Source: Phyllobacterium zundukense (GTDB lineage Bacteria; Pseudomonadota; Alphaproteobacteria; Rhizobiales; Rhizobiaceae). From it: a stretch of DNA of 64,000 nucleotides. Shown here one piece after another: positions 23,257-53,652 of the stretch (the first letter of the stretch is position 1; every line of letters begins with the position of its first letter). Below the pieces are notes generated by a model. The model worked only from the letters and a program-made list of their open reading frames with translations, was not told where the DNA came from and did not search any database. Location: contig NZ_CP104970.1 in NCBI RefSeq assembly GCF_025452195.1, positions 248,001 through 312,000 of the forward strand. The letters are read 5' to 3'. A program made the translations under genes and the position numbers.

Positions 23257-23260
23257 CAAA

Positions 23261-25239: not shown

Positions 25240-25250
25240 CGATTCACGTG

Positions 25251-26855: not shown

Positions 26856-26860
26856 GCCCT

Positions 26861-26890: not shown

Positions 26891-26926
26891 GAACCAACCC
26901 TTATCTTATATTTGTGGACAAATACC

Positions 26927-29708: not shown

Positions 29709-29755
29709 GACCCAGAGCAGCGACGTCCAATTCTATCAATCTAAAGGAGAGCATC

Positions 29756-30553: not shown

Positions 30554-30582
30554 AACTGACTGACTGAATTTTGGAGGCGATA

Positions 30583-31968: not shown

Positions 31969-31994
31969 AAAACATGTGCCATGGGAGGCGATAA

Positions 31995-33092: not shown

Positions 33093-33110
33093 ATGATCTG
33101 GAAAGCAGTT

Positions 33111-34871: not shown

Positions 34872-35470
34872 GCGCCTTTCGGTGGCGCTTTGCCTTACGC
34901 GGGCGGTGGCGTCGAAAGCAGAATTACTCTCCGAGATCGACTGCAATGCACCTTGGCCCGCGCAGGGCAAACCGCGCAGCATCCACGTAGACACCGGCCG
35001 TGATTTCCGGTCCAAGGCGTTTCAGGCGGCCTGCGCGGAATGGGGAATTGACCTTGCGTACAGGCCTCGAGGGAGCCCACACTTCGGCGGGCACATCGAG
35101 CGGCTAATTGGCACGATGATGGGAGCGGTCCACCTGTTGCCTGGAACCACGCAATCGTCCGTTGCCGCCAAAGGCAGCTATTAGGCCGAAGCCAAGGCTG
35201 CGATGACTCTGAGTGAGTTCGATAGCTGGTTCGCCCTGGAGGTTTGTCGCTACAACAACAGCATTCACTCGAGCCTCGGCTGTACGCCCGTTGCCAAATG
35301 GGAGGCTTTGGCCGCGGAGATGTCGGGCGACATTCCCTTCGGCATGGATGCGTTTCGGGTGAGCTTCCCGCCAAGCGAACAGCGCCAGGTTCGGCGGGAC
35401 GGCATCCATCTGTTCGACATCCGCTATTGGTCGGATGCCTTGGCAGGGCACATTGGTCGCAAGGATGATG
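34872..35470 (+). pseudogene. Remnant of a Mu/TniA-type transposase
   Basis: The frame running through 34872-35470 reads as the core of a DDE transposase with a Mu C-terminal domain: VALCLTRAV, HVDTGRDFRS, PHFGGHIERLIGTMMGAVHL (with the catalytic Glu), a TAG stop at 35182-35184, then TLSEFDSWFALEVCRYNN and HLFDIRYWSDALAG. The N terminus and probably the last residues are missing and an in-frame stop splits the rest, so it is dead. It lies between the polyol operon and the aromatic cluster and touches the 3' end of the convergent monooxygenase gene. Confidence 0.8.
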
Positions 35471-37124
35471 CGACATGGCCCAAGACCGTCGCAATGATCT
35501 GTGAAGCGTCATCACCGTCGTTCCCACGCCAGGCGATGACCTGATCAGGTCGAATGAGGACGAGCGGCTCGCGATAGAGTGCAAGGAGTTGATCCTGTTC
35601 TATGTCAACGACGGTCAGATCCATCCCGGCCTTCCTTGCCGCAGCAACAAGCTCGTCCCCAGTCGATGACGGGGGGCGAAGCCTGAGGAGCGTCCATTCA
35701 AATCCGAATCGGTCGAACAGCGATGTCTGGGGACTCAGCCAGACGTGGGGCGCCCTTCCGCCGGGCGCTGCATTGGGGACATAGACATCCGGGAGGTCCG
35801 GACCCTGCTCCTTTTCTTCGGACAGGATGACCGGCGAATGGTCATAGCGGGCGCCGAAGGTCACGCCGGGTATATTGAACTCAGATCGCCCATGTGCCTC
35901 GAGATAGACGCCAGCTTCCCGTCGCAACTCCGATCCGAGATCCGTATCCGCTTCGAGGTGGGTTTTCGGAAGGTAGTTTCCGATGGATTCAGCGAACGTC
36001 TTGGCAAAGCCGGTATTCCTGACAGCGACGGGACGCCGCTCCAGTTCATAAGTATCGAGAAGGAATGGTGTTGCAATTCCTTTGGCAACCGAGGCGAGTT
36101 TCCAGCCGAGATTGACCGCGTCATCCACCGCTGTGTTATACCCCAGGCCACCCGCTGGGGTAAAAAGATGACCTGCGTCGCCGCCCAGGAATATCCGTCC
36201 CGCCTGAAACTTTTCGGCGACAAGCGCATAGCCGGCTGTCCAGGTGCCGCGAGAAAGGATTTCCGCATCAAGGGGATACCCCACGACCGACTGAAACATC
36301 TCAAGGGCTTGCGCGTCTGATATATCTTCTTCCTTTTCGCCTTCCTTCAACTGAGTGTGGAAAGCAAACTCGCCTTTGCCATCGACGGCGGCCATGAACG
36401 CCCGGCGCTCAGGATTGAACGCGACGTTCATCCATGCGGGTGCAAAGGGAACAACGTCATAGAACTGCGGGCAGCGAAGATAGAGGGCAAACATTTTCCC
36501 GCCGAAGAAGTCTCTCACCGCTCCGCCATCGCCCTGATAGCGAATGCCGAGTGTCCTGCGTATGAAACTTTTCGCGCCATCTCCTCCAACGAGATACTTG
36601 GCTGTTACGGAGCGGGTGCTCTCGGAGCCGACCTGACTTGCGGTCATGGTCACGGCGTCACAAACGTCTTCGAACCGGGATATCCGCCACCCATAGTTCA
36701 CCGAAACTGTAGACAGGGCTTCGGCATGCTTGCGTAGAACGCGCTCGACAAACTTCTGGGAGACACGGTGGGGCAATTCGGCAGCGCTCCAGGATCCTGT
36801 CATTGTCAGGATCTTCTCGCGCGCCTCTTTGGCTGAGGGAAGGCGAAAGCGAGCCAATTCATGGCGAGCATATCGCGTGAAATAAGCGATATCGGTTGGA
36901 AATTCTTCAGGCATGCCGAGTGCACGGATCTCATCAGCAAATCCCAGGCGCCGAAAATGCTCCATGGTTCTTGCCTGAGTGGCATTGGCCTGGGGATTGA
37001 AAGCCGTCGAAGATTTCTCGTCAAAGAGAATGGTTGAAACGCCCCGGCGGCCAAGTTCGTTGGCCAGCATCAGTCCGAACGGGCCACCACCCGCGATGGC
37101 GACATCGTAAACTTCGTGAGTCAC
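35424..37124 (-). CDS. FAD-dependent aromatic hydroxylase (PheA/TfdB/MhpA-like)
   Basis: A 566-residue flavoprotein monooxygenase. N-terminal FAD site: DVAIAGGGPFGLMLANELGRRG. Conserved middle DG motif: YLVGGDGAKSFIRR. Second FAD motif: GRIFLGGDAGHLFTPAGGLG. A C-terminal thioredoxin-like domain carries the LRPDQ-type ending VLIRPDQVIAWRG. Such enzymes hydroxylate phenols or hydroxybenzoates with NAD(P)H and oxygen, some with loss of carboxyl. In this cluster it is the best candidate to make hydroxyquinol. The GTG at 37124 follows GGGAGG by 8 bases. The last 10-15 residues are encoded by DNA shared with the transposase remnant, so the native end may be lost. Confidence 0.85.
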   Translation of the reverse strand: MTHEVYDVAIAGGGPFGLMLANELGRRGVSTILFDEKSSTAFNPQANATQARTMEHFRRLGFADEIRALGMPEEFPTDIAYFTRYARHELARFRLPSAKEAREKILTMTGSWSAAELPHRVSQKFVERVLRKHAEALSTVSVNYGWRISRFEDVCDAVTMTASQVGSESTRSVTAKYLVGGDGAKSFIRRTLGIRYQGDGGAVRDFFGGKMFALYLRCPQFYDVVPFAPAWMNVAFNPERRAFMAAVDGKGEFAFHTQLKEGEKEEDISDAQALEMFQSVVGYPLDAEILSRGTWTAGYALVAEKFQAGRIFLGGDAGHLFTPAGGLGYNTAVDDAVNLGWKLASVAKGIATPFLLDTYELERRPVAVRNTGFAKTFAESIGNYLPKTHLEADTDLGSELRREAGVYLEAHGRSEFNIPGVTFGARYDHSPVILSEEKEQGPDLPDVYVPNAAPGGRAPHVWLSPQTSLFDRFGFEWTLLRLRPPSSTGDELVAAARKAGMDLTVVDIEQDQLLALYREPLVLIRPDQVIAWRGNDGDDASQIIATVLGHVASSLRPMCPAKASDQ

Positions 37125-37155
37125 GGTAAAACCTCCCAAATCTGCTGGCGCAAAA

Positions 37156-37182
37156 ATAGTAAGGAAACCGGACCAATGTCAA
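37156..37182 (-). promoter_or_regulatory. Promoter and MarR operator candidate before the hydroxylase (O1)
   Basis: On the minus strand, TTGACA (37182-37177) is followed by TTGGTCCGGTTTCC and TACTAT. The operator-like part (37177-37156) matches the palindrome at 40489-40511 at 16 of 22 positions. It gives the hydroxylase its own promoter although the marR gene lies just upstream in the same direction. Confidence 0.5.
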
Positions 37183-37643
37183 TCCGCTTGATCACCCTCT
37201 TTGTTGATTTGACACTCTACATATTTCCCGAGAGCTTCTACCATTAGATCAACCATTGCCGGCCCGAGCTGGTCACGCATTTCATTTTCTGCCACCTCCA
37301 GACTTTGATGAAAGGCCTCCAGCCAAATGAAGCCGCGGTCTGTGAAGCATACGAGCTTTGCCCTGCCGTCGGCGGGATCTTGGCGTTTTTCAATGAGGCC
37401 GGTCCGTTCTACCTGATCGACCAGTTCACTCATCGATTGCTTTGTGAGAGAGGCGCGTCTCGCCAGTTCCGTGAGTCTTGTCCCGTCTTCGTCGAGGTTT
37501 CGGGTTAGATTAATATGTGCGGCGGTAAGTTCGGAATGCCCTTTGGCTTTCAGATTTTCGATGATCCTGTTCTCGAATATCCTGACCGCCTCGTTCATCC
37601 GGCGGCCAATGTTGCTCCTGCGCCATGCATTTTTCAAAATCAT
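37179..37643 (-). CDS. MarR-family transcriptional regulator
   Basis: A 154-residue winged-helix regulator. Core: NLDEDGTRLTELARRASLTK (recognition region), QSMSELVDQVERTGLIEKR and the wing DPADGRAKLVCFTDRG. MarR proteins are dimeric repressors released by phenolic compounds. It is divergent from the O-demethylase operon and precedes the hydroxylase gene. Four similar sequences near the promoters of the cluster are its probable targets. Confidence 0.9.
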   Translation of the reverse strand: MILKNAWRRSNIGRRMNEAVRIFENRIIENLKAKGHSELTAAHINLTRNLDEDGTRLTELARRASLTKQSMSELVDQVERTGLIEKRQDPADGRAKLVCFTDRGFIWLEAFHQSLEVAENEMRDQLGPAMVDLMVEALGKYVECQINKEGDQAD

Positions 37644-37722
37644 TTTGTACCACCTCGGAAGCTATCAATTTACACGAGTACGCCTGCGGCAAGTATTTTT
37701 CCAGCCCCTCGACTTAAATTGG

Positions 37723-37770
37723 TTGACATGTGCCGCCCTCACAAAATATGGTCAGGCTACCGTACTAAAT
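37723..37770 (+). promoter_or_regulatory. Promoter and MarR operator candidate before the demethylase (O2)
   Basis: TTGACA at 37723-37728 with a weak -10 region near 37744-37751. Overlapping it is GGTCAGGCTACCGTACTAA (37750-37768), which matches O1 at 14 of 19 positions. It drives the short open frame at 37793 and the demethylase operon. Confidence 0.5.
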
Positions 37771-37792
37771 AAGGTGTCTTGGAGGAGGCTTT

Positions 37793-37888
37793 ATGGACGA
37801 GAGGATTTTGCGGCCGAATTGGGGACCAACGGCGCTGCACCATCCCGCGCGCGGTTCTCGCCACCACCAAGAACAGTCGATTCAATAG
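37793..37888 (+). CDS. Possible 31-residue leader peptide
   Basis: An ATG four bases after a very strong ribosome-binding site (GGAGGAGG at 37781-37788) opens a 31-codon frame starting MDERILRPNWGPTALHHPAR and ending TAG, between the promoter and the demethylase gene. It has five histidines and four arginines. It could be a real small protein, a translated leader or the remnant of an earlier gene start. No homologue is recognised. Confidence 0.4.
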   Translation: MDERILRPNWGPTALHHPARGSRHHQEQSIQ

Positions 37889-37953
37889 GCCACTGGTCGA
37901 CGTACAGTCAAATCGCTCAGCAGAGCGGAACATAAGAGGAGGATGTTCGAGCA

Positions 37954-39369
37954 ATGGTAAAGGCAAACGGCGCGCGATCACTACAAGATTTGGTCGACGA
38001 GAAAACCAATCTCGTCGAGTATTTTTACAACGACACACTTGCGCCCCATTACCGGGCGCGTACCGGGCTCACCGCCGCGTTCATTCCGCCGGAGTTCACA
38101 AATTGGCGAGACGAGCAGCGTGCCTGGCGCGGGACCGCGATCCTGTTCGACCAGACGCACCATATGCCGGAACTCATGCTCAAAGGTCCCGATGCGTTTC
38201 GGTTGCTTGAAAAGCTCGGCATCAACAGCCTGTCGAATTTTACGATTGACCGCGCCAAGCAATTCGTCGCTTGCACGCCACGCGGTCACGTCATCGGCGA
38301 TTGCGTCGTCTACAGACTTGCCGAGGACACGTTCGAGCTGATCAGCGGCATGCCTGTCCTGAACTGGGTACAGTTTAATGCGGAACAAGGCGGCTACGAC
38401 GTGACGATCGAGCGCGACGACCCGACGCCTTACAACCCGACCGGCAGGCGCTGGTTTTATCGTTTCCAGTTGGAAGGTCCCAATGCCGGCCTGATCTTCA
38501 ACGCTGCGGTCGAGGGGGGTGCCCCGGAGATTGCATTCTTCAGAACCGCGAAGGTTAAAATCGGCGGATGCGAAGTGCTCGTTCTGCGGCATGGAATGGC
38601 GGGCCATCTCGGTGCGGAGCTTTCCGGTCCGTATGAGGACATGGAAAAAGTACGCGCCGCGCTGCTCAGTGCCGGTGAGGCGCATGGGCTGAAGCAGGGT
38701 GGAACAAAGACCTATTTTAGTACGATCTTCGAATTTGGCTGGATGCCTTACCCGCTGCCGGGAATCTATACGGGCGAAGAACTGCGCGATTTTCGCCAAT
38801 GGCTGTCTGGAAGCGGTTGGGAAGCGAACGCCCAACTCGGCGGCAGCTTCGTCTCGGATAATATCGAAGATTACTACGTCACCCCGTGGGATCTCGGCTA
38901 CGGCCATATTCTCAAGTTCGATCATGACTTCATCGGGCGCGAAGCCCTGGAAGCCCTGCCCGTGGAGAAGCGGCGCCAAAAGGTCACGCTGGTGTGGAAC
39001 CGCGACGACGTTGCGGCAATCTTTGCGTCTGCCCTCGGAGACGGGCCACGATACAAGGCTATAGACCTGCCGGTCGCCTATTATGGCTGGCCCCAGTTCG
39101 ATGAGGTGCGGGGGCGGGATGGCATGCTCGTCGGTCACTCCTGCCATTGCGGGTATAGCAACAACGAAGGCGAAATGCTGTCTCTCGCCATGCTCGACGT
39201 TCAAAACGCGACTCCCGGGACGCAAGTGACACTCACCTGGGGAGAACCCGGTGGCGGGTCGCGCAAGCCGCATGTTGAACGGCACGAGCAGTTCAAGGTC
39301 AGGGCGGTCGTGGCGCCCGTTCCCTATGCAAGTTCGGTTCAAAAGATGAAGCGCGCTGCGATCAGCTGA
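37954..39369 (+). CDS. ligM: LigM-like tetrahydrofolate-dependent aromatic O-demethylase
   Basis: A 471-residue protein of the GcvT/aminomethyltransferase fold, closest in length and pattern to LigM/DesA, which move the methyl group of vanillate, 3-O-methylgallate or syringate to tetrahydrofolate. Features: WRDEQRAWRGTAILFDQTHHM, the LEKLGINSLSNF region, FELISGMPVLNWVQF and TPWDLGYGHILKFDHDFIGREAL typical of GcvT folate sites. GAGGAGG lies upstream. The next gene encodes a MetF-like reductase that would reoxidise the 5-methyl-THF formed, which strongly supports the assignment. The exact methoxy substrate is unknown. Confidence 0.87.
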   Translation: MVKANGARSLQDLVDEKTNLVEYFYNDTLAPHYRARTGLTAAFIPPEFTNWRDEQRAWRGTAILFDQTHHMPELMLKGPDAFRLLEKLGINSLSNFTIDRAKQFVACTPRGHVIGDCVVYRLAEDTFELISGMPVLNWVQFNAEQGGYDVTIERDDPTPYNPTGRRWFYRFQLEGPNAGLIFNAAVEGGAPEIAFFRTAKVKIGGCEVLVLRHGMAGHLGAELSGPYEDMEKVRAALLSAGEAHGLKQGGTKTYFSTIFEFGWMPYPLPGIYTGEELRDFRQWLSGSGWEANAQLGGSFVSDNIEDYYVTPWDLGYGHILKFDHDFIGREALEALPVEKRRQKVTLVWNRDDVAAIFASALGDGPRYKAIDLPVAYYGWPQFDEVRGRDGMLVGHSCHCGYSNNEGEMLSLAMLDVQNATPGTQVTLTWGEPGGGSRKPHVERHEQFKVRAVVAPVPYASSVQKMKRAAIS

Positions 39370-39521
39370 CGATCGCCGGTGTTCGCTTAGCGCCTTTGCG
39401 TCAGAGCGACCACCGGTGTTGTCCTGGCTACGGATACGCTGCGGTGGGCTACTCCCGAACGTTCACATTCTTCTCGCGCAATAAGAATTCGCTTGTGCGC
39501 TCGCAGGCGGGATGGGTTTTT

Positions 39522-40382
39522 ATGGCTATGTCGCATGCAATACATCTCCGAGACCGAAGCGATGTGCTGGATGACTTTTCGGTGGAAGTGACGACAAAAG
39601 ATACAGCACAACTGGCGGCTTTGTCTGGCGCGATCCCCAAAGGCACCATCATCTCGATTCCGTTTCTCTCAACGGAAAGCGATGCCGACCGGATCATGGC
39701 GGCCAAAATGGTTCGACAGGCGGGATATGAGCCCTTGCCTCACATTGCCGCCAGACGTCTGGGCTCGGAAGCTGTGCTATCGGCAATGCTGTCGGCGCTT
39801 GTGAATGACGCCCAGGTAACCCGATTGCTCATAATCGCGGGCGATGCCGATCCTTCCAAGGGCCCGTTTTTGGATACTGCTACGATCTTGCGCAGCGGTA
39901 TCCTTGAAAATCACGGGATCAGGCATGTCTCGATAGCCGGGCATCCGGAAGGACACCCGATCCAGAACGCTGCCATGCTCAACAGCGCGCTGCTGGAAAA
40001 ACGGCAAATCATGGAAGCGGCAGATATCGAGTGGTCGATATTCACTCAGTTTGCGTTCGCATCGGAACCCGTGCTTGCCTGGATCGGTGAACTGCGTCGA
40101 TTGGGTATCGAGGTGCCGATCCACGTCGGTATTCCTGGTCCGGCAAGCGTCAGAACGCTATTGAAATTTGCAGCGGTTTGCGGCGTTTCCGCCTCGACAG
40201 CCGTCCTCAAGAGGTACGGTCTATCGATCACCCAATTGTTGTCGAGCGCAGGCCCCGACGCTCTGGTCAGTGAATATGCTACCGCCTTGAGCAACGCCGA
40301 TCGCGGCGATGTTCGTCTGCATTTCTATCCATTTGGCGGACTACGCAAAACGGTGGACTGGTTACGAGGGTACCGGACGTGA
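39522..40382 (+). CDS. metF: Methylenetetrahydrofolate reductase (MetF-like)
   Basis: A 286-residue TIM-barrel protein. MetF family marks: DFSVEVTTKD (flavin/catalytic region), LPHIAARRL, RLLIIAGDAD, VSIAGHPEGHP and FTQFAF. Shorter and more divergent than housekeeping MetF, as is usual for the copy linked to ligM. In demethylation it works backwards, oxidising 5-methyl-THF to 5,10-methylene-THF. The ATG at 39522 is used; the alternative ATG at 39528 is 6 bases on, and the longer frame from 39396 lacks a ribosome-binding site. Confidence 0.82.
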   Translation: MAMSHAIHLRDRSDVLDDFSVEVTTKDTAQLAALSGAIPKGTIISIPFLSTESDADRIMAAKMVRQAGYEPLPHIAARRLGSEAVLSAMLSALVNDAQVTRLLIIAGDADPSKGPFLDTATILRSGILENHGIRHVSIAGHPEGHPIQNAAMLNSALLEKRQIMEAADIEWSIFTQFAFASEPVLAWIGELRRLGIEVPIHVGIPGPASVRTLLKFAAVCGVSASTAVLKRYGLSITQLLSSAGPDALVSEYATALSNADRGDVRLHFYPFGGLRKTVDWLRGYRT

Positions 40383-40405
40383 CTTCCCAATGCGCCGATG
40401 TAAAT

Positions 40406-40423
40406 GTCAGGTAGCCTTACTAT
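40406..40423 (+). promoter_or_regulatory. MarR operator candidate (O3)
   Basis: GTCAGGTAGCCTTACTAT, 15 of 19 matches to O1 when one flanking base is included, lying between the reductase gene and the importer promoter. Probably an auxiliary site of the same regulator. Confidence 0.4.
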
Positions 40424-40481
40424 ACCGGAACATTTGCGATTCAGAATACACGGATGAAACGGTCCAGGATGTGGAGAAAAC

Positions 40482-40511
40482 TTGACATATTAGTACGGAT
40501 TCCGTACCAAT
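40482..40511 (+). promoter_or_regulatory. Promoter with palindromic operator before the importer operon (O4)
   Basis: TTGACA at 40482-40487, a 17-base spacer and TACCAA at 40505. Between and over them is a perfect inverted repeat, GTACGGATTCCGTAC (40493-40507), extended by ATT and AAT on the sides. It is the most symmetric of the four related sites and would block RNA polymerase when bound. Confidence 0.6.
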
Positions 40512-40576
40512 ATTAGCGGAGGAAGTGGCGCTTCAGCGTCAGTGCACCGGACGCTTTTCCGGTAGGGAGGGAAAAT

Positions 40577-41746
40577 ATGACATTCTCGAAATTGACGTTG
40601 TATCTCGTGGCATCGGCGGCGTTTTTTACGGCTGGCACGCTCGCCCAGGCCGAGACAATCAAGGTCGGCGTAATCGCTACATTCTCCGGGCCTAACGCAA
40701 TCTGGGGTAAGCAATTCCGCGAAGCGATCGATGTCTATGTCGCGCAGCACGGAGACGAGGTTGGCGGTCACAAAATTCAGTTCATCTACAAGGACGTTGG
40801 CGGACCCAACGCCGACGCCAGCAAGGCCGCGGCCCAGGAACTTCTCGTCCGCGAAGGCGTGAAATATCTTGCAGGATTCGACTTCACGCCCAACGCTGTG
40901 GCGGTTGCTCCCCTGACAAAGCAGGCCAAGGTGCCGGCAGTCATTTTCAATGCAGGGACATCGTCGATTAACAAGCAGTCGGAGTTTTTTCTCCGTACCA
41001 GCTTCACGCTCGCGCAGCTTGCACAGCCGGCGGCAGAATGGGCGGCGAAGAACGGCTCCAAGAAAGTCATCACGGCCGTTTCCGACTACAATCCGGGGAT
41101 CGATGCAGAAACCGCCTTCGCCGCCTCTTTCGAAAAGAATGGTGGGACGGTTCTTGAAAAGATCCGAATGCCGCTCCAGACCAATGACTTCGCGCCGTTC
41201 CTGCAGCGAATCAAGAATTCCGGTGCTGATACGGTCTTTACGTTCCTGCCGGTCGGCCCAGCGACCTTCGCTTTCACCAAGGCCTACAATGAAAATGGCC
41301 TGAAAGCCGCAGGCGTTTCGTTCATCGGAAATGGCGAGACCGACGAGACCACACTCGACGCGCTGGGAGACCAAGCCATTGGTCTCGTGACAGCGTATCA
41401 CTACTCCGACGTCCACGAGTCTGGACTTAACAAGAGCTTTGTCGCAAAACTGAAGGAACTTCATCCGGGCTCGCGCGCCAACATGGCTTCGGTCGGCGCT
41501 TATGACGGCGCGGAGTTGATCTACCGGATGATCAAGGCTGCAGGGACTGACGGCACAAAAGCCATCGAGGCGGCCAAGGGCATGGAATGGGAAAGCCCAC
41601 GCGGACCGGTGAAGATGGATCCGGTCTCACGGACGGTGGTGCAGAACGTCTATCTTCGGCGTGTTGAAAAAGGCGCGGACGGCAAACTGGTCAATCGGGA
41701 ATTTGCGACTGTCCCGAACGTACCGGACCTCGGCTTCAATCCCTGA
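40577..41746 (+). CDS. Branched-chain-type ABC substrate-binding protein (LivK-like)
   Basis: A 389-residue periplasmic binding protein with a signal peptide (about 1-24, ending LAQAE). Family segments: IKVGVIATFSGPNAIWGKQF, NADASKAAAQELLVREGVKY, and VPAVIFNAGTSSINKQSEFF. This family often binds aromatic acids in alphaproteobacteria, and its place inside an aromatic catabolic cluster fits an aromatic ligand better than leucine. Preceded by GGGAGGG. Confidence 0.88.
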   Translation: MTFSKLTLYLVASAAFFTAGTLAQAETIKVGVIATFSGPNAIWGKQFREAIDVYVAQHGDEVGGHKIQFIYKDVGGPNADASKAAAQELLVREGVKYLAGFDFTPNAVAVAPLTKQAKVPAVIFNAGTSSINKQSEFFLRTSFTLAQLAQPAAEWAAKNGSKKVITAVSDYNPGIDAETAFAASFEKNGGTVLEKIRMPLQTNDFAPFLQRIKNSGADTVFTFLPVGPATFAFTKAYNENGLKAAGVSFIGNGETDETTLDALGDQAIGLVTAYHYSDVHESGLNKSFVAKLKELHPGSRANMASVGAYDGAELIYRMIKAAGTDGTKAIEAAKGMEWESPRGPVKMDPVSRTVVQNVYLRRVEKGADGKLVNREFATVPNVPDLGFNP

Positions 41747-41760
41747 TCCACGGTGAGCGT

Positions 41761-41777
41761 GGCGGCAATTTTCCGCC
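41761..41777. promoter_or_regulatory. Small intercistronic hairpin
   Basis: GGCGG and CCGCC arms around a 7-base loop between the binding protein and first permease genes. Weak (five pairs) but in the same place as hairpins in the other importer operons of this window. Confidence 0.35.
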
Positions 41778-41813
41778 CCGCAACGTCCGACCTCGCAAAT
41801 TTCAGGTTAGAGA

Positions 41814-42677
41814 ATGTCTCTCATTTTAAGTATCGTCGTCGATGGCGTCGCCTACGGGATGATATTGTTCATGATTTCCGTCGGGCTTTCGATCACGATG
41901 GGGCTCATGCGCATTATCAACCTTGCGCACGGCGGGTTTGCCCTGCTTGGCGGCGCAGCCGTTCATCTGCTCACCACACGTCTGGACGTAGCGTTCGTTC
42001 CTGCGTTCCTCGTCGCCGTTCTCGCGGTTGTCCTCGTTTCCGTGCTTCTCGAGCGGCTGCTCTATCGCCACATCTATGGCTTCAACGAGTTGGGCCAGGT
42101 GTTGGCGACCATTGGAATCGTCTTCATCATGATCGCAACCGTCAATCTGTTCCTGGGCTCCACGATCCTGCCGCTTGGCGCCCCGGCGATTTTCACGACA
42201 CCGATCGATCTCGGGTTCAGGACGCTACCGTTCCACCGGCTGGTCGTTATCATTTCCGGTTTGCTTGTGCTGGCCGGTCTCTGGTTTCTGATGGAAAAAA
42301 CAAGGTTCGGCATCTACTTGCGCGCAGCTGTCGACAACAGGGTTGCGGCCGCCTCGCTCGGCATCAACACGCCGCTCGTCTATCTCGTTGCATTCGCCCT
42401 CGGTGCCGGTCTCGCGGCCGTCGGAGGTATCCTCGGTGCTGAACTGCTGCCGATCGAGGCCTACTATCCGCTCCGTTATATGGTGCTGTTCCTGATTGTT
42501 GTGTCCGTGGGTGGACTTGGCAGCATTTCCGGATCCTTCCTTGCTTCGATTGGCCTCGGGATTCTCGATACGGCTGGTCGCTATCTCCTGCCGGGCGTTG
42601 GTACCATCTTCTTTTTCGTGGCGATTGTGGTCCTGCTCGCGCTTCGGCCCAATGGTCTGATGGGGAAAGCGCAATGA
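41814..42677 (+). CDS. Branched-chain-type ABC permease (LivH-like)
   Basis: A 287-residue, very hydrophobic membrane protein with about eight membrane segments. Typical LivH marks: GLSITMGLMRIINLAHGGF near the N terminus, ERLLYRHIYGFNELGQVLAT and GGLGSISGSFLASIGLGIL. Ends overlapping the next gene start by four bases. Confidence 0.92.
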   Translation: MSLILSIVVDGVAYGMILFMISVGLSITMGLMRIINLAHGGFALLGGAAVHLLTTRLDVAFVPAFLVAVLAVVLVSVLLERLLYRHIYGFNELGQVLATIGIVFIMIATVNLFLGSTILPLGAPAIFTTPIDLGFRTLPFHRLVVIISGLLVLAGLWFLMEKTRFGIYLRAAVDNRVAAASLGINTPLVYLVAFALGAGLAAVGGILGAELLPIEAYYPLRYMVLFLIVVSVGGLGSISGSFLASIGLGILDTAGRYLLPGVGTIFFFVAIVVLLALRPNGLMGKAQ

Positions 42678-43663
42678 CGGCCCCCGTGCTTTCCACCTCG
42701 CCGAGGCGCGTGACGATCGCTTTGAGCTTGCTCATCCCGTCCACTTGCGTCGTGATCGGTGCGACGCTTGCCTTTCTGATATTCCCGTACGACCTGTCGT
42801 TTCTAACCCGTATCGTCATCATGATGATCTTCGTCGTGTCATTCGATCTGATCCTTGGACAGGCGGGAATCGCCACACTTGGTCACGCCGCGATGTATGG
42901 CTGCGGCGCCTATGCCGCGGGACTGGTTTCGCTTCACCTGTCGCCCGACCCGCTGTTCGGGCTCCTGGTCGGCGCCGTGGCCGGCGCAGTGATGGCTTGG
43001 ATTTCCGGGCTTGTCCTGCTTCGCACCCACGGCATAACGCTGTTGATGATTTCGATAGCCGTGACCATGGTTCTTCAGGAGATCGCATCCCAGGCACGTT
43101 GGCTGACGGGCGGCGCCGACGGCCTGGCCGGCATTACGGTCGGACCTCTGCTGGGCCTGTTCGAATTCGATTTCATCGGTCAGGTGGCCTTTATTTACAG
43201 CGTGTGCGTTCTCGCATTCGTCCTGGTGCTCTGCCAGGTGCTGATCGGCTCCCCGTTCGGGCTCGCTCTTCGGGGAATTGAAGGCAGTGCAAGCCGGATG
43301 CGGGCGATCGGTACGCCGGTCTATCGTCGAAAGGTGACGGTCTACGTTATCGCTGGCGCTATTGCTGGAATTGCCGGAGCGCTTGCGGCCCAGGTGACAG
43401 GCCTGGTTGGCATCGAAGTGTTCAATTTCTCCTTGTCTGCCGACGTTATGGTGATGCTGATCCTGGGAGGAGCCGGGCGGCTCTATGGCGCGCTGATCGG
43501 GACATTGCTCTTCATGGTAGTCCATCATGTCGCGGCAAGCATCGATCCTTTGAACTGGCTCTTCGTGATCGGCTTCATGCTTCTCATCGTGGTGTTCGTG
43601 CTCCCAAAGGGTCTTCTTGCTCTCCCAGGTCACTTGGCGCGATTGCTCAGGAGGACGTCATGA
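42674..43663 (+). CDS. Branched-chain-type ABC permease (LivM-like)
   Basis: A 329-residue membrane permease pairing with the LivH-like protein. Recognisable: SFDLILGQAGIATLGHAAMYG and GSPFGLALRGIEGSASRMRAIG (coupling loop), then GGAGRLYGALIGTLLFMV. Starts inside the LivH stop and overlaps the first ATPase start by four bases. Confidence 0.92.
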   Translation: MTAPVLSTSPRRVTIALSLLIPSTCVVIGATLAFLIFPYDLSFLTRIVIMMIFVVSFDLILGQAGIATLGHAAMYGCGAYAAGLVSLHLSPDPLFGLLVGAVAGAVMAWISGLVLLRTHGITLLMISIAVTMVLQEIASQARWLTGGADGLAGITVGPLLGLFEFDFIGQVAFIYSVCVLAFVLVLCQVLIGSPFGLALRGIEGSASRMRAIGTPVYRRKVTVYVIAGAIAGIAGALAAQVTGLVGIEVFNFSLSADVMVMLILGGAGRLYGALIGTLLFMVVHHVAASIDPLNWLFVIGFMLLIVVFVLPKGLLALPGHLARLLRRTS

Positions 43664-44409
43664 ACGACGGGCTTTCCATCGTTGGACTTTCTAAAAATTT
43701 CGGAGGCCTGCAGGTCGCCCGGGACCTGACGCTCACGTTGCCGCGAGGCTCGCGCACCGCACTGATCGGGCCAAATGGTGCGGGCAAGACCACTTTCGCA
43801 AATCTCCTGACCGGTGTTCTGAGGCCGACATCGGGCAAGATCGTGCTGAACGGTCTGGATATAGGATCTCTGAACGAAGCAGCTCGGGTGAGGGCAGGCG
43901 TCGCGAAAACCTTCCAGATAACCAATCTGTTTCGCGACCTGACCGTTCGGGAAAACCTGCGGCTGCCAATACTGGAGCGGGAAGGCCGCACGCATCAGTT
44001 CTTTCGTCGGGCGGACGGGTGGAGCGATATCGAAGCTGAGATCGCCCGGTTGATGCAGGATCTCAATATCCAGTCGCTGGCTGACAAGCCGGTGCGTGGA
44101 CTGGCTTACGGCCAGCAGCGGCTGGTGGAATTGGCGCTGACACTGGCGGTGAAGCCGAAGGTTCTCATTCTCGATGAGCCGGCGGCAGGCGTACCCTCTA
44201 CCGAGAGCCACTTTATCGTGGAGGCCATCAAGCGGCTTCCCCAGGATCTGTCGGTTCTCATCATCGAGCATGACATGCAGCTGGTGTTCGAGGTCGCAGA
44301 CCGTATCATCGTGCTGGTGAATGGCGCGATCCTGATGGAGGGCACGCCCGACGAGGTTGTCGCCAACAAGCAGGTTCGCGAACTCTACCTGGGAGCGGTC
44401 CATGTCTGA
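43660..44409 (+). CDS. Branched-chain-type ABC ATPase (LivG-like)
   Basis: A 249-residue ATPase: Walker A GPNGAGKTT, VAKTFQITNLFRDLTVRENL (Q-loop region), LAYGQQRLVELALTL signature, Walker B VLILDEPAAGV and switch IIEHDMQLV. The usual PSE motif reads PSTES. The ATG at 43660 overlaps the stop of the LivM-like gene. Confidence 0.92.
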   Translation: MNDGLSIVGLSKNFGGLQVARDLTLTLPRGSRTALIGPNGAGKTTFANLLTGVLRPTSGKIVLNGLDIGSLNEAARVRAGVAKTFQITNLFRDLTVRENLRLPILEREGRTHQFFRRADGWSDIEAEIARLMQDLNIQSLADKPVRGLAYGQQRLVELALTLAVKPKVLILDEPAAGVPSTESHFIVEAIKRLPQDLSVLIIEHDMQLVFEVADRIIVLVNGAILMEGTPDEVVANKQVRELYLGAVHV

Positions 44410-45106
44410 CATTCTCCTCGAACTGGACGGTGTCGTGGCCGGCTATGGCGATACCCATGTCATCCGCAATGTCTCGCTCCGCATCCCAAAGGGCGAGCGG
44501 CTGGCGATCGTCGGGAGAAACGGTGTCGGCAAAACCACGCTGCTCTCCACAATCATGGGCCAGACGCGGCAACATGGCGGAAGCGTCAAACTCGAGGGTA
44601 TGGCAATCGATGCGCTCGCCTCGCATCAGAGGGCGAGACTGGGGATCGGCATCGTGCCGCAGACCCGCGATATCTTCGGATCGCTGACGGTCGAGGAGAA
44701 TCTGGTTGCAGGGCTTCGGAATGGATCGACTCTGGAAGAGGCTTACCATCTGTTTCCCCGGCTGAAGGAGCGTCGTTCCAACGGCGGGCGCCAGCTTTCC
44801 GGAGGCGAACAGCAAATGCTGTCGATTGCCCGTGCTCTTCTGGGAAAGCCGGAAATCATTTTACTGGATGAGCCGCTGGAGGGGCTGGCGCCGGTTATCT
44901 GCGAAATGCTGATGGACGTTTTCCACAAGCTGGCCGATCAGGGCCAGACGATCGTGCTGGTGGAGCAACATGTGGGTTTGGCGCTCAAGTTTGCAGAGCG
45001 CGTCATCGCGCTCGATCAGGGCAAGATCGTCTTTGAGGAACAGGCGGCAAAACTGATCGCCAACCGTTCCGCACTCGACCGATATATCGGTCTCTCCGCC
45101 CAATAA
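44402..45106 (+). CDS. Branched-chain-type ABC ATPase (LivF-like)
   Basis: A 234-residue ATPase: Walker A GRNGVGKTT, signature LSGGEQQMLSIARAL, Walker B IILLDEPLEGLAP and switch LVEQHVGLAL. The ATG at 44402 overlaps the LivG end by eight bases; an upstream frame start at 44357 lies inside livG and is unlikely. Completes the importer. Confidence 0.92.
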   Translation: MSDILLELDGVVAGYGDTHVIRNVSLRIPKGERLAIVGRNGVGKTTLLSTIMGQTRQHGGSVKLEGMAIDALASHQRARLGIGIVPQTRDIFGSLTVEENLVAGLRNGSTLEEAYHLFPRLKERRSNGGRQLSGGEQQMLSIARALLGKPEIILLDEPLEGLAPVICEMLMDVFHKLADQGQTIVLVEQHVGLALKFAERVIALDQGKIVFEEQAAKLIANRSALDRYIGLSAQ

Positions 45107-45221
45107 CCGGCGCGGACGGCAGACCACGCACGATGGCCTTCCAGGAGCTCAGCGGGCTGAAGCATTTGTCGGAGAGCCGGATGAGCATCTATTGAAGAGC
45201 TCTAACAGATACGGGGATAGA

Positions 45222-46106
45222 ATGAAGAACTATGTCTTGACGGTTTCCTGCCAAACCACACGTGGCGTTGTCGCGGCGATTTCCGGTTTCCTTGCGGCCA
45301 AGGGTTGCAACATCGTCGACAGCTCGCAGTTCGATGACCGGGACACCGGCAAGTTCTTCATGCGGGTCAGCTTCGTCTCCGAAGAGGGCGTGTCGCGGCC
45401 CGATCTCTCGGAAGGTTTCATGCCGGTAGCGGACAAATTCGGCATGGAATGGGACATTTTCGATGCGCAGCAGCGCATGAAAGTGCTTCTCATGGTGTCG
45501 CGCTTCGGCCACTGCCTCAACGACCTGCTCTACCGCTGGAAGATTGGCGCACTGCCGATCGACATCGTCGGCGTCGTATCGAACCATTTCGATTACCAGA
45601 AACTGGTGGTCAATCACGACATTCCCTTCCACCACATTCCGGTGACCAAGGCCAATAAGCCGGAGGCGGAGGCACGCATCATGGCGTTGGCCGAAAGCAC
45701 CGGCACTGAGGTGATCGTGCTCGCCCGTTACATGCAGATCCTCTCCGACGAGATGTGCCAGAAAATGTCCGGGCGGATCATCAATATCCATCATTCCTTT
45801 CTGCCGAGCTTCAAGGGTGCTAATCCCTACAAGCAGGCCTATACGCGCGGCGTCAAGCTCATCGGGGCGACGGCACATTACGTCACTGCTGATCTAGACG
45901 AAGGCCCGATCATCGAGCAGGACATCGTGCGCATCACGCATGCGCAGTCGGCCGAAGATTATGTCTCCCTGGGTCGTGACGTGGAGGCACAGGTGCTCGC
46001 CCGCGCCATCCACGCTCACATCCACCATCGGACCTTTATCAATGGAAATCGCACCGTCGTCTTCCCGCCGAGCCCGGGAAGCTATGCCTCCGAGCGCATG
46101 GGCTGA
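45222..46106 (+). CDS. purU: Formyltetrahydrofolate deformylase
   Basis: A 294-residue enzyme with an N-terminal ACT domain (YVLTVSCQTTRGVVAAISGF) and a C-terminal formyltransferase fold (DIVGVVSNHFDY, then IINIHHSFLPSFKGANPY with catalytic His, and GATAHYVTADLDEGPIIEQD with catalytic Asp). Hydrolyses 10-formyl-THF to formate and THF. In this operon it regenerates the THF consumed by the O-demethylase. The ATG at 45222 with GGGGATAG upstream is preferred to an upstream in-frame start at 45192. Confidence 0.92.
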   Translation: MKNYVLTVSCQTTRGVVAAISGFLAAKGCNIVDSSQFDDRDTGKFFMRVSFVSEEGVSRPDLSEGFMPVADKFGMEWDIFDAQQRMKVLLMVSRFGHCLNDLLYRWKIGALPIDIVGVVSNHFDYQKLVVNHDIPFHHIPVTKANKPEAEARIMALAESTGTEVIVLARYMQILSDEMCQKMSGRIINIHHSFLPSFKGANPYKQAYTRGVKLIGATAHYVTADLDEGPIIEQDIVRITHAQSAEDYVSLGRDVEAQVLARAIHAHIHHRTFINGNRTVVFPPSPGSYASERMG

Positions 46107-46151
46107 CCCGGCAGCGACGACAGTACCGTTCGAATCCAAGAGGAGAAGACC

Positions 46152-47219
46152 ATGCGCGAGCCGTTTACCTACAAAGGCACTATTCCTCGCATCGTGTTCG
46201 GTGTGGGGACGATCTCTCAGGTGGCCGAAGAATTGCATGGCCTTGGTCGGCAAAAGGCCCTTGTCCTGTCGACGCCGTTTCAGGAAAAGGAGGCGCAAAG
46301 GCTTGTCGAACAGTTGGGATCCGTCTGTGTGGGGGTCTTCAGCGGTGCCATGATGCACACGCCCGTCGACGTGACGATCGAAGCGCTTCGGGTTTTTGCT
46401 GACGCCGGTGCGGACTGCGTCATTTCCTTGGGCGGAGGTTCAACGATCGGGTTGGGCAAGGCTATCGCCTACCGGACTGATACGCCCCAGCTGGTCATCG
46501 CCACAACCTATGCCGGATCGGAAGTGACCCCGATCCTCGGGCAGACGGAAAACGGCATCAAGACCACGGTGCGTGATGCATCAATTCTGCCCGAAACAGT
46601 GATCTACGATCCGGAACTGACTTACAACCTGCCTGTCAAAATGACAGTTACCAGCGGCCTCAACGCCATGGCCCATGCCGTAGAAGGACTGTACGCACAG
46701 GATCGCAACCCGGTGTCCTCAATGATGGCGATGGAAGGCATAGCAGCGCTGCACAAGGCGCTGCCTGCCATTATTGGCGCCCCCCGCGATCCAACGGCCC
46801 GCACCGACGCGCTTTACGGCTCCTGGCTGTGTGGCGTCGTCTTAGGTGCTGTCGGAATGGCACTGCACCACAAAATCTGCCACACACTGGGCGGCAGCTT
46901 CGACCTGCCGCATTCGGAAACGCATGCCATCCTTCTTCCTCATACGGTAGCGTATACGGAGGGAGCTGTCCCTCATCTGCTTGAGCCTGTCGCTGACTTG
47001 ATGAGGACTGATCACGCCTCGACGGGGCTTTACGATTTCGCGCATAGCATTGGCGCCCCAACCAGGCTCAAAGATTTCGGACTGGCTACCGAGGACCTGG
47101 ACAAAGCGACAGACGTCGCCATGCGAAACCCTTACTGGAACCCCCGGCCTCTGGAAGCTACGGCAATCCGAGAGATGCTTCAGATGGCATGGGAAGGGGC
47201 GAGGCCTGGGTCGTCGTGA
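46152..47219 (+). CDS. Maleylacetate reductase
   Basis: A 355-residue iron-type alcohol dehydrogenase fold. Features of maleylacetate reductases: N-terminal RIVFGVGTISQVAEEL, the GGGSTIGLGKAIAYRT nucleotide site, PQLVIATTYAGSEVTPILGQTE, and late HHKICHTLGGSFDLPHSETHA with metal-site histidines. Reduces maleylacetate to 3-oxoadipate with NADH. AGAGGAG precedes the ATG. Directly upstream of the ring-cleavage dioxygenase, as in hydroxyquinol and resorcinol operons. Confidence 0.92.
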   Translation: MREPFTYKGTIPRIVFGVGTISQVAEELHGLGRQKALVLSTPFQEKEAQRLVEQLGSVCVGVFSGAMMHTPVDVTIEALRVFADAGADCVISLGGGSTIGLGKAIAYRTDTPQLVIATTYAGSEVTPILGQTENGIKTTVRDASILPETVIYDPELTYNLPVKMTVTSGLNAMAHAVEGLYAQDRNPVSSMMAMEGIAALHKALPAIIGAPRDPTARTDALYGSWLCGVVLGAVGMALHHKICHTLGGSFDLPHSETHAILLPHTVAYTEGAVPHLLEPVADLMRTDHASTGLYDFAHSIGAPTRLKDFGLATEDLDKATDVAMRNPYWNPRPLEATAIREMLQMAWEGARPGSS

Positions 47220-47322
47220 ACACGGAGGCCAGAGTGATCCGCATCAGGAACCAAGTCCGAGCCTTTTTACCAGGGAGGCTTCGGGATGAAGGCAAACCAA
47301 TTCTCACTCAGAAGGAAAAGGT

Positions 47323-48162
47323 ATGACAAATTATTTCACCGAAGAAGCCTCCGTCGAGGCGGTAAACGGGCGCATGGCCTCCGATATCGATCCTCGCGTG
47401 AGGGAGGTCATGACCTTGCTTGTGAAGCATCTGCATGCCTTCATCAAGGAAGCCAAGGTTTCGCAACAGGAATGGGAAACCGCAGTTCGGTTTCTGACAC
47501 AGACCGGCAAGATTTGTTCGGAGGAACGGCAGGAATTTATACTGCTATCCGACACGCTTGGCGTATCCATGTTGGTGGATGCGATCAACAACCGCAGGCA
47601 ACCGGGCGCAACTGAAAACACCGTGCTCGGACCGTTCCACGTCGCGGGGGCTCCCCGTCTTGCAATGGGCGATCGCATCACGCTTGACGGGAAGGGCGAG
47701 AGCTGTGTCTTCGAAGGCGCCGTGGTCGATCTGGACGGACATCCGATCGAGGGTGCAATCATCGATGTTTGGTCAGACAATGCCGACGGCTTTTACGATG
47801 TGCAGCAACCTGACGCTCAGCCGAAGTGGAATAACCGCGGTACCTTCGTGACCGGCCCCGATGGGCGCTACAGCTTCGTCGGAATCAAGCCCGTCTCATA
47901 CCCCATTCCCGCCGATGGGCCTGTGGGCCAGATGCTGAAGCAACTTGGCCGGCATCCCTATCGGCCTGCACATATGCACTACATCGTCACGGCCGCCAGC
48001 TTCCAGAAACTGGTGACCCATACGTTCGTCGGCGACGATAGCTATCTTTCGTCCGATGCCGTCTTCGGTGTCAAAGCCACGTTGATCGCGCCGTATGAGC
48101 GTGTGCTCGGCGGTGAAACCGTCTGGCGTTCGCCATTCGATTTTGTGCTTAACCCACTGTGA
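47323..48162 (+). CDS. Hydroxyquinol 1,2-dioxygenase (intradiol type)
   Basis: A 279-residue Fe(III) intradiol dioxygenase. The N-terminal helical linker domain (about 1-100) contains FLTQTGKICSEERQEFILLS. The beta-sandwich core has TENTVLGPFHVAGAPRL, VDLDGHPIEGAIIDVWSDNA with the first metal-site region, GRYSFVGIKPVSYPIPADGP (tyrosine ligands) and HPYRPAHMHYIV with the two histidine ligands. The GPFHV...AD pattern fits hydroxyquinol rather than catechol enzymes. Converts 1,2,4-trihydroxybenzene to maleylacetate. AAGGAAAAGG precedes the ATG. Confidence 0.9.
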   Translation: MTNYFTEEASVEAVNGRMASDIDPRVREVMTLLVKHLHAFIKEAKVSQQEWETAVRFLTQTGKICSEERQEFILLSDTLGVSMLVDAINNRRQPGATENTVLGPFHVAGAPRLAMGDRITLDGKGESCVFEGAVVDLDGHPIEGAIIDVWSDNADGFYDVQQPDAQPKWNNRGTFVTGPDGRYSFVGIKPVSYPIPADGPVGQMLKQLGRHPYRPAHMHYIVTAASFQKLVTHTFVGDDSYLSSDAVFGVKATLIAPYERVLGGETVWRSPFDFVLNPL

Positions 48163-48172
48163 GGCGGCTGAG

Positions 48173-48505
48173 ATGCCAAATATGAAGATTTACGTGGATC
48201 GATCACTACCAGAGCAGTCTCATCTGAACATTGAAGCCGCTCTGGTGCCGCTGAGAAAATTGTTATGCGAAAGGCTGGACGTCAACATCAACGCCTGCCA
48301 GTTTGCTGTCATTCCAGTCTACGCGATGGCCGACCTTCCGGCGGTGAACCTCGAGCTTTTCCTCCTGCCGAAAGCAGAACGGACGCGTCAGAAACTCATG
48401 GACCTTGCCACGGAAATCCAGCAATTGGTCGGGGATGCTGCGATCACACAAGTTGCTGTTCGGATTTCCCAGCTCGACCCTGCGACGTTCATAGCCTTGA
48501 AGTGA
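48173..48505 (+). CDS. Small tautomerase-like protein
   Basis: A 110-residue protein starting MPNMKIYVDRSLPE. After Met removal it would have the N-terminal proline that is the catalytic base of tautomerase-superfamily enzymes. It lies 10 bases behind the dioxygenase gene in the same operon. A role in isomerising maleylacetate or a ring-cleavage by-product is plausible, but the family match is weak, so the function is tentative. The upstream in-frame start at 48095 overlaps the dioxygenase and is unlikely. Confidence 0.6.
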   Translation: MPNMKIYVDRSLPEQSHLNIEAALVPLRKLLCERLDVNINACQFAVIPVYAMADLPAVNLELFLLPKAERTRQKLMDLATEIQQLVGDAAITQVAVRISQLDPATFIALK

Positions 48506-48961: not shown

Positions 48962-49669
48962 CTATTTCGAGGCGGACTTGATCTGCTCGAGATAGCTATA
49001 GACGGTGAACCTCGAAATCCCGAGGCTGGCGGCGGCGACGTCGACGCTGGAGCGGATCATGAACAGGCCGCGAAGGCTCATATTGCGGACCGCCTCCACC
49101 TTGTCTTCCTTCTGCATCTGGATGACGGTCTTACCCGTCGCCTTGATGCTGGTGTCGATGATCTCGGTAACGATCTCCTCGACCGAAAGCGCTCCGCTCT
49201 CGCCAGGATCATCCTCTTGCTGCTGTTCGTTGGCGACTTCCAGGATCAACGCCTTGAGTTCCCGCATCTTGCTTCGATCTGCGTTGACACAAATCGCCGC
49301 ATAGGCGGTGCCCTCGCTGTCCCGCAACAAGATGCTCGTGGATTCGAGTTCCAGACCGGTTCGGGTCCGGGTCTTGTAGCCGTCCACGATCGTCAGCGGC
49401 TCGTTTGCTTCGTTCATGTCACCGGCGATGAGCTTCTTGAGACCGACATCGCCGAACGGACCGCTGATGATGGAACTGCCGACGGTGCGGCCGCTCACCT
49501 TGCCATTGGCGATTGCGACAATCGATTCCTCGGGCTTGGCGAGATCATGCAGTACGATCTCGGTATTGGGCCCGAAGCATTTGGCAAGACCGGCGACGAC
49601 ACTTGCCAGCGCATCGATCACGAGTCTGCGTTCAGCGTCGGTGGTAGGCCGCATACGTTCAACTGCCAT
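48962..49669 (-). CDS. YheO-type PAS/HTH transcriptional regulator
   Basis: A 235-residue regulator. The N-terminal YheO-like PAS domain includes FGPNTEIVLHDLAKPEESIV, ANGKVSGRTVGS and YAAICVNADRS. The C-terminal helix-turn-helix has RSSVDVAAASLGISRFTVYS. Members usually control nearby metabolic or transport genes in response to small ligands. It lies at the end of, and in the same direction as, the amino-acid importer operon, with an 89-base gap, so it may be cotranscribed or have its own promoter. Confidence 0.88.
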   Translation of the reverse strand: MAVERMRPTTDAERRLVIDALASVVAGLAKCFGPNTEIVLHDLAKPEESIVAIANGKVSGRTVGSSIISGPFGDVGLKKLIAGDMNEANEPLTIVDGYKTRTRTGLELESTSILLRDSEGTAYAAICVNADRSKMRELKALILEVANEQQQEDDPGESGALSVEEIVTEIIDTSIKATGKTVIQMQKEDKVEAVRNMSLRGLFMIRSSVDVAAASLGISRFTVYSYLEQIKSASK

Positions 49670-49758
49670 TGAATTCGATCTTCTCCGCGATAAGTCACAA
49701 ATCTGTCTAGCAAGCTCTTGACGGTGTGCAACGGCAATTCAGTGGGCACGTGGCACGG

Positions 49759-50220: not shown

Positions 50221-50224
50221 GAAT

Positions 50225-53588: not shown

Positions 53589-53623
53589 GTCGCCAGCTTC
53601 GGTGGATCGGGAGAGGGCGGTGA

Positions 53624-53639
53624 CGCGGCGAAGGCCGCG
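53624..53639. promoter_or_regulatory. Intercistronic hairpin
   Basis: CGCGGC and GCCGCG arms around a GAAG tetraloop, in the 64-base gap between the binding protein and the AapQ-like gene. Likely keeps the binding-protein message in excess. Confidence 0.5.
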
Positions 53640-53652
53640 CCAGCCATTCGGC

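Follow-up and report, generated by a model that had tools for sequence, protein, structure and literature searches.

Four described systems stand closest to the gene set treated here, which occupies positions 35424-48505 of a 64,000-nucleotide stretch of Phyllobacterium zundukense DNA (the window) on contig C2 of a 6.41-Mb genome. In the LigM-MetF module of Sphingobium SYK-6, a folate demethylase acts on vanillate and 3-O-methylgallate, a MetF homologue works in the oxidising direction, and a MarR regulator exerts control through a 15-bp inverted repeat; the C1 unit passes to LigH and the ring to 4,5-cleavage (PMC6888825, available part; PMC12585457). Dmt06 and Dmt50 are tetrahydrofolate-dependent demethylases of dicamba (3,6-dichloro-2-methoxybenzoate) with no natural substrate given. 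According to the available text of PMC9404685, Dmt06 is inactive on vanillate and syringate, has relatives in Sinorhizobium, Tianweitania, Microbacterium and other genera, and is encoded by a gene that may serve demethylation of natural aromatics. The dxnCDEFGHI genes of Rhizorhabdus wittichii RW1 are Swit_4887-4894, with dxnF as 4890, dxnC as 4894 and fdx3 as 4893 (PMC3425912, available part). The fourth system is the gamma-resorcylate (tsd) cluster of Rhizobium johnstonii 3841.

The gene set of the window shares folate demethylation, an oxidising MetF homologue and predicted MarR control at a 15-bp palindrome with the SYK-6 module, whereas its C1 unit is predicted to go to PurU and its ring to hydroxyquinol. 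We consider, at a probability of about 0.6, that the gene set forms a plasmid-borne regulon under MarR control, devoted to a methyl ether of 2,4-dihydroxybenzoate, of which 4-hydroxy-2-methoxybenzoate is the simplest candidate. This ring pattern is proposed because the demethylase points to an ortho methoxy group, the binding protein to a para hydroxyl group, and the hydroxylase to conversion of 2,4-dihydroxybenzoate to hydroxyquinol; a P450 found in some clusters points to a para methoxy group. The acid would be imported by the ABC system, and the Dmt-type enzyme, judging from its clade, would transfer the ortho methyl group to tetrahydrofolate and leave 4-hydroxysalicylate. The DxnD-like flavin enzyme, judging from its homologue, would hydroxylate and decarboxylate this compound to hydroxyquinol, which the dioxygenase and maleylacetate reductase, well supported by family, would convert to maleylacetate and then 3-oxoadipate. 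Family assignments suggest that the methyl group would be oxidised by MetF and a chromosomal FolD and released as formate by PurU. More speculatively, a small tautomerase may aid the enol ring-cleavage product. The enzyme families, gene order and operators are observed directly, and from them we infer the substrate and each turnover. The locus is a new combination of known parts; among the titles and abstract beginnings listed from open-licence papers, none joined a folate demethylase to a hydroxyquinol cluster, which does not amount to absence from print.

The flavin hydroxylase and a MarR regulator are encoded leftward, and the O-demethylase, a MetF-like protein, a five-gene ABC importer, PurU, a maleylacetate reductase, an intradiol dioxygenase and a 110-residue protein rightward (Table 1). 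All genes named in an earlier, sequence-only reading of the window are found as open frames where it placed them, in agreement with family and structure matches. Family matches also back its proposals of O-demethylation on folate with methyl-to-formate disposal, and of coupling to an importer and a hydroxyquinol branch that yields 3-oxoadipate. The locus is genuine and conserved, and the earlier reading placed it rightly and parsed it largely rightly. Absent from that reading are the MarR regulator (37179-37643), the operators and what kind of protein the terminal short gene (48173-48505) encodes, and its vanillate-type substrate class should give way to a 2-methoxybenzoate-type one. Four plasmid records contain 80% or more of the 13.2-kb stretch, which is more than a chance occurrence. 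The carriers are mostly rhizobial plasmids, many from nodule isolates; four more R. leguminosarum plasmids (CP025505, CP022669, CP071635 and CP016288), outside the 18 replicons mapped below, match at 97%.

The demethylase belongs to the Dmt06 clade. In a tree of 45 rows, it joins Dmt06 and protein P0054 of Rhizorhabdus dicambivorans at 98/95 support, and the Dmt06-side clade splits off the LigM-type rows at 100/100. The Dmt06 row is a 473-residue demethylase of [Actinomadura] parvosata subsp. kistnae (locus L061), so taken because organism and length agree with the statement that Dmt06 has 473 residues and is 100% identical to a protein of this organism (available part of PMC9404685). P0054, 69% identical to the window enzyme, is probably Dmt50, judging from its 72.6% identity to Dmt06 against the 72.3% reported for Dmt50 in the same available text. 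The name LigM-like, given by the sequence-only reading, holds insofar as LigM is the best solved structure (437.6 bits), but fails as a guide to the substrate, the enzyme lying in a sister clade and lacking Arg122. Assignment as LigM or DesA was rejected, since both curated NCBIfam cut-offs are missed (LigM, 521.9 against 580; DesA, 568.5 against 800), LigM Arg122 is absent and the tree groups the enzyme with Dmt06.

The residue at the position of LigM Arg122 should be noted. The window enzyme keeps the GCV_T fold and LigM His60 and Tyr247, which we take to be the catalytic residues. Arg122, which presumably sits at the substrate carboxylate in LigM, is aligned with Gly in the window. Of the 158 rows with at least 53% identity, 146 have Gly here, 12 have Ser and none has Arg; Arg occurs in 18 of the 21 rows below 53%, one of the 21 (L083) being a clade member read out of frame. 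These 179 rows besides LigM comprise 120 listed proteins, 57 loci, the window and Dmt06; near-copies were kept, DesA is outside the alignment, 58 of the 80 loci are represented (L061 included), and LigM numbering is the 5x1i residue number minus three. Dmt06 and Dmt50 likewise lack this Arg; they come with no natural substrate, whereas the window enzyme is tied to a hydroxyquinol pathway and an importer. A vanillate/3-O-methylgallate demethylase name is nevertheless carried by many JGI entries and one NCBI entry among the 120 relatives listed.

The sequence-only reading offered vanillate as one option: the demethylase would give protocatechuate, which the flavin enzyme would oxidatively decarboxylate to hydroxyquinol. 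The distant LigM kinship (48%), a vanillate complex among the binding-protein relatives, and the conversion of protocatechuate to hydroxyquinol reported in Rhodococcus and Agrobacterium (cited in the available part of PMC10815724) agree with such a route. We nevertheless judge it unlikely in view of the inactivity of Dmt06 on vanillate and syringate (PMC9404685, available part), the loss of Arg122 across the clade, probable pcaGH genes on contig C1 of the genome, and the 57% identity of the hydroxylase to an enzyme of a 4-hydroxysalicylate cluster. The kinship with dicamba enzymes, the nearest characterised demethylases, also raises breakdown of xenobiotic chlorinated methoxybenzoates of the dicamba kind, and the best solved match of the dioxygenase (8r2x) is named 6-chlorohydroxyquinol dioxygenase. 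This appears very improbable, because the hosts are mostly rhizobial plasmids, many from nodules, and close relatives have, in the stretches that carry annotation, no gene named as a dehalogenase, no search aimed at one having been made.

The hydroxylase suggests 4-hydroxysalicylate as the ring intermediate. Its homologue Swit_4892 lies on pSWIT02 of RW1 (L134) with a reductase, a hydroxyquinol 1,2-dioxygenase, a CoA transferase and a thiolase, and is identified as DxnD from the order of the dxn genes. Identities between the window and DxnD-DxnE-DxnF are 57% (hydroxylase), 52% (reductase) and 47% (dioxygenase), with the same three steps. By this homology, the window enzyme would be a decarboxylating 4-hydroxysalicylate 1-hydroxylase with hydroxyquinol as its product. 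The RW1 genes differ from the window in adjoining dioxin dioxygenase and CoA-transferase/thiolase genes; the 15.2 kb fetched holds no demethylase and no operator copy. The hydroxylase is linked to a maleylacetate reductase and a hydroxyquinol dioxygenase in the window, L129, L131, L132 and L134, but not in L133. A survey of 297 sampled family genomes, in which up to four hydroxylase and up to eight dioxygenase candidates were scored per genome, found the hydroxylase at 55% or more in nine, with the dioxygenase within 12 kb in three of them. The idea that the enzyme reliably marks a hydroxyquinol pathway was thus rejected, the remaining six being unlinked; the 9.7-19.5 kb around each of these has no match to the dioxygenase or reductase of the cluster. 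Three of the six, from one genus (L137, L138 and L139), carry homologues at 68-69% without other cluster genes, beside a frame that is MutL-like in translation. In L044, L131, L132, L133 and L143, a benzoylformate decarboxylase and an aldehyde dehydrogenase stand beside the flavin hydroxylases of hydroxyquinol clusters, suggesting a feeder route through 2,4-dihydroxyphenylglyoxylate.

The importer is a five-gene ABC system of the branched-chain type. The nearest solved structures of its binding protein, at 54-55%, are 4evs, titled as a 4-hydroxybenzoate complex, and 4f06; 4ey3 and 4eyg, with p-hydroxybenzoic and vanillic acid, follow at 44-47%. This kinship favours a benzoate hydroxylated at position 4 over simple methoxyphenols. 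Four of 18 mapped clusters include a P450; two of these have 384 and 400 bits to CYP199A4 among solved structures and at most 166 outside that group, and the first of them shares 77% and 98% identity with the remaining two. CYP199A4 is taken here to demethylate para-methoxybenzoates, and a P450 of this type fits an extra para-methoxy group on the substrate. The loss of an Arg presumed to face the carboxylate would suit a methoxyphenol without a carboxyl group (such as methoxyhydroquinone or a methoxyresorcinol) as methyl donor, hydroxylated straight to hydroxyquinol. We regard this as highly unlikely, since the binding protein resembles 4-hydroxybenzoate binders, a DxnD-like hydroxylase calls for a substrate with a carboxyl group, and the CYP199A partners are presumably benzoate enzymes. 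The Dmt06 substrate is also a benzoate (PMC9404685, available part).

To follow conservation, 18 replicons with a demethylase at about 85% identity or more, the window included, were mapped. All 18 carry a hydroxyquinol dioxygenase on the contig of the demethylase, no more than 20 kb away. It lies within the stretch first mapped in 16 and was reached by a wider look in L040 and L059; it stands in a separate gene group in Agrobacterium fabrum (L135, gap 19.6 kb) and Chelativorans (L143, gap 16.5 kb). The DxnD-like hydroxylase is found in 16, MetF in 15 and PurU in 14, one of the four replicons without PurU (L058) stopping at a contig end. Rhizobium CB3090 (L044) and Chelativorans have no DxnD-like hydroxylase, and a PRK07538 flavin monooxygenase adjoins their dioxygenase (515.4 and 508.7 bits). 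At 56-76% demethylase identity, the dioxygenase is present in only two of 20 loci (L072 and L079), some fetched stretches being short; the pairing is therefore mainly a trait of the close clade. L072, from Geodermatophilus sabuli of another phylum, has the order flavin hydroxylase, demethylase, binding protein, dioxygenase, reductase, with 62% (demethylase), 55% (dioxygenase) and 46% (reductase) identity; its flavin enzyme scores best against models of 3-hydroxybenzoate and salicylate hydroxylases, without reaching their cut-offs. A protein fusion in L072 (775-residue frame) was rejected: the frame runs too long because the DNA is GC-rich, and the dioxygenase match begins near 12910.

Some clusters look decayed or differ in content. 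In Rhizobium sullae (L129, 7769-8137), a 54-residue demethylase-matching piece abuts a 75-residue FolD-matching piece between the MarR and reductase genes; the middle of the cluster is gone, and the hydroxylase, reductase, dioxygenase and tautomerase are kept. The cluster of Rhizobium sp. 32-5/1 (L042, 12001-19204) looks decayed: the demethylase match is broken into three, and the annotation splits both the binding protein and one ATPase in two. L048 of Agrobacterium (3073-11261, LigM-type) and L046 of Bosea (1-13395, Dmt-side) combine a folate demethylase, MetF, PurU and an intradiol dioxygenase with HpaH/HpaI-like hydratase and aldolase genes in a putative ring-cleavage route.

The genes probably share one regulation. 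The predicted operator is a 15-bp palindrome whose core, GTnnGGnnnCCnnAC, occurs five times in the window (mean of 0.79 in shuffled sequences, none of 100 reaching five). Four copies lie at three cluster promoters: one before the hydroxylase, one between the MarR gene and the demethylase, and two before the importer; the fifth is elsewhere (18416). The demethylase site recurs in all 18 replicons, the hydroxylase site in all 16 that have a hydroxylase, and the importer site in 14 of 18. CB3090, without the hydroxylase, has an operator at the corresponding place, and a few extra copies occur in five loci. A MarR gene is present in 17 of 17 other replicons, and TTGACA, GTCAGG, CCG and a following AC are invariant in 15 aligned demethylase upstream regions. 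The demethylase/MarR, hydroxylase and importer units thus look like one regulon, in which MarR would bind the predicted operator. Clusters of Paraburkholderia, Bradyrhizobium and R. sullae that lack an intact demethylase likewise have the operator ahead of the hydroxylase. Control by the regulator of the hydroxyquinol-forming enzyme may have been extended to the demethylase and importer.

The observed separations invite another explanation, that two functions are merely neighbours: a C1-harvesting demethylase for another methoxybenzoate and a 4-hydroxysalicylate pathway. L131, L132 and L134 have the hydroxylase, reductase and dioxygenase without the demethylase in the fetched stretch, 18 of the 20 loci at 56-76% lack the dioxygenase in stretches that are in part short, and the hydroxyquinol genes of L135 and L143 stand apart without an operator. 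However, the operator is common to demethylase and hydroxylase in all 16 close replicons having both, and the pairing recurs in Geodermatophilus. Independence of the two is accordingly improbable in our estimate.

Several observations weigh against a 4-hydroxy-2-methoxybenzoate regulon. CYP199A enzymes suit veratrate too, and vanillate is also among the ligands in crystals of related binding proteins. No operator copy is found in Variovorax (L132) or RW1, at the hydroxyquinol genes that stand apart in A. fabrum and Chelativorans, or before those of L044. Hydroxylase homologues at 55-69% are unlinked to a hydroxyquinol dioxygenase in six of nine sampled genomes. The DxnD assignment rests on gene order, the title wording "4-hydroxysalicylate/hydroxyquinol" cluster, and a later paper (PMC3425912, available part). 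Dicamba is the sole clade substrate reported in the available part of PMC9404685, where few others were tried.

The MetF-like protein, which probably starts near 39522 rather than at the TTG at 39396, matches 7xg9, presumably the oxidising MetF homologue of SYK-6 described in PMC12585457. No FolD is found in the window cluster; the sequence-only reading had proposed that the chromosome could supply one, and in the same genome there is a strong match on contig C5 (220.7 bits) and a marginal one on C4 (27.1, cut-off 27). folD lies inside the cluster in five of the 18 replicons, the window counted.

The dioxygenase is nearer to hydroxyquinol enzymes (433.7 and 255.5 bits) than to catechol enzymes (128.2 bits for the best chlorocatechol enzyme) and falls below the catechol and chlorocatechol family cut-offs. 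The genome has three intradiol-family matches, this one and two adjacent genes on C1, probable pcaGH, 5 kb from a pcaF that exceeds its cut-off; therefore 3-oxoadipate made by the cluster can be used. The tsd cluster (L136) has the same lower pathway of maleylacetate reductase and hydroxyquinol-type dioxygenase, but a flavin reductase, a flavin monooxygenase and a gamma-resorcylate decarboxylase in place of the DxnD-like enzyme. The 110-residue protein has no Pfam or NCBIfam match. Its predicted model has a beta-alpha-beta fold, with a Foldseek E value of 7.2e-7 to a 4-OT variant and TM of 0.6-0.7, and its N-terminal proline, Pro2, is invariant in nine of nine aligned sequences. That it tautomerises the ring-cleavage product is speculative. 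In L132 a Dabb protein, and in L136 a YciI protein, adjoins the dioxygenase.

Table 1. Features of the gene set and its predicted regulatory sites (window coordinates).
Feature	Position	Strand	Evidence
FAD aromatic hydroxylase, DxnD-like	35424..37139	-	NF004780 674.7 bits, cut-off 445; 57% over 547 aa to Swit_4892
Predicted operator 5' of hydroxylase, GTAAGGAAACCGGAC	37159..37173	.	
MarR-family regulator	37179..37643	-	Pfam MarR 34.9 bits, cut-off 24.6; annotated relatives start later (420 nt)
Sigma-70-type promoter TTGACA-18-TATGGT before demethylase	37723..37752	+	one match in window, none in 100 shuffles
Predicted operator touching -10 box of demethylase promoter, GTCAGGCTACCGTAC	37751..37765	.	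in 18/18 replicons
Tetrahydrofolate-dependent aryl O-demethylase, Dmt06 clade	37954..39369	+	70% to Dmt06 protein (L061), 48% to LigM; tree
MetF-like 5-methyl-tetrahydrofolate oxidising reductase, 7xg9 type	39522..40382	+	7xg9 243.9 bits, next best 38.8
Predicted operator 5' of importer, GTCAGGTAGCCTTAC	40406..40420	.	
Predicted operator 5' of importer, arms GTACGG/CCGTAC	40493..40507	.	
Periplasmic binding protein, 4-hydroxybenzoate type	40577..41746	+	54-55% to 4evs and 4f06
ABC importer permease 1	41814..42677	+	BPD_transp_2
ABC importer permease 2	42674..43663	+	BPD_transp_2
ABC importer ATPase 1	43660..44409	+	ABC_tran
ABC importer ATPase 2	44402..45106	+	ABC_tran; start from annotated relative L039
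PurU, formyl-tetrahydrofolate deformylase	45222..46106	+	TIGR00655 338.2, cut-off 286
Maleylacetate reductase	46152..47219	+	3hl0 473.8 bits
Hydroxyquinol 1,2-dioxygenase	47323..48162	+	8r2x 433.7 bits, 1tmx 255.5
Small tautomerase-superfamily protein, 110 aa (predicted)	48173..48505	+	AlphaFold2 pLDDT 90.8; Foldseek to 4-OT, cis-CaaD, MIF

The neighbourhood holds other genes. Positions 24460-34820 carry in a row a GntR-like regulator, a sugar-type ABC importer, an FGGY kinase, a MalK-type ATPase and a Dak1-Dak2 kinase, together with alcohol-dehydrogenase-like and aldolase-like proteins recognised from translation only; this is a separate polyol/ketose operon whose last gene encodes a dihydroxyacetone kinase. 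Left of the operons (19762-24034), there are, judging from translation only, a transposase-like frame and three frames resembling tyrosine recombinases, of which the third is short. To the right (48962-53699) are a YheO-like PAS/HTH regulator, a RidA-like protein, a class V aminotransferase and amino-acid ABC permeases, an arrangement kept in L039. A link between the PAS regulator and aminotransferase neighbours and a similar trio in Variovorax (L132) was unsupported, with identities of only 38% and 28%.

The gene set suggests a natural job for enzymes known mainly as dicamba demethylases, and gives a concrete, testable answer on the natural role of the Dmt06 gene, the ring pattern being predicted from neighbouring genes. 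The annotation "LigM-like" may mislead for this clade. A defined putative operator and regulator are now on offer, and an unnamed family of small proteins, predicted to fold like tautomerases, is brought to light. A natural source of the substrate can be proposed tentatively, at low odds. 4,4'-Dihydroxy-2'-methoxychalcone occurs in Vicia sativa exudate and induces nod genes of R. leguminosarum bv. viciae (PMC5039741, available part), and its ring has the 2,4-dioxygenated, 2-methoxy pattern of the proposed substrate. The rhizobial regulon might consume the A-ring of this legume nod-gene inducer and phytoalexin as 4-hydroxy-2-methoxybenzoate, though no candidate gene for chalcone cleavage is present among the genes seen at the cluster. 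If this holds, it would give the natural role from which the dicamba demethylases come, a dedicated ring-product tautomerase would be added to the hydroxyquinol pathway, and rhizobial plasmids would hold genes that clear a host signal.

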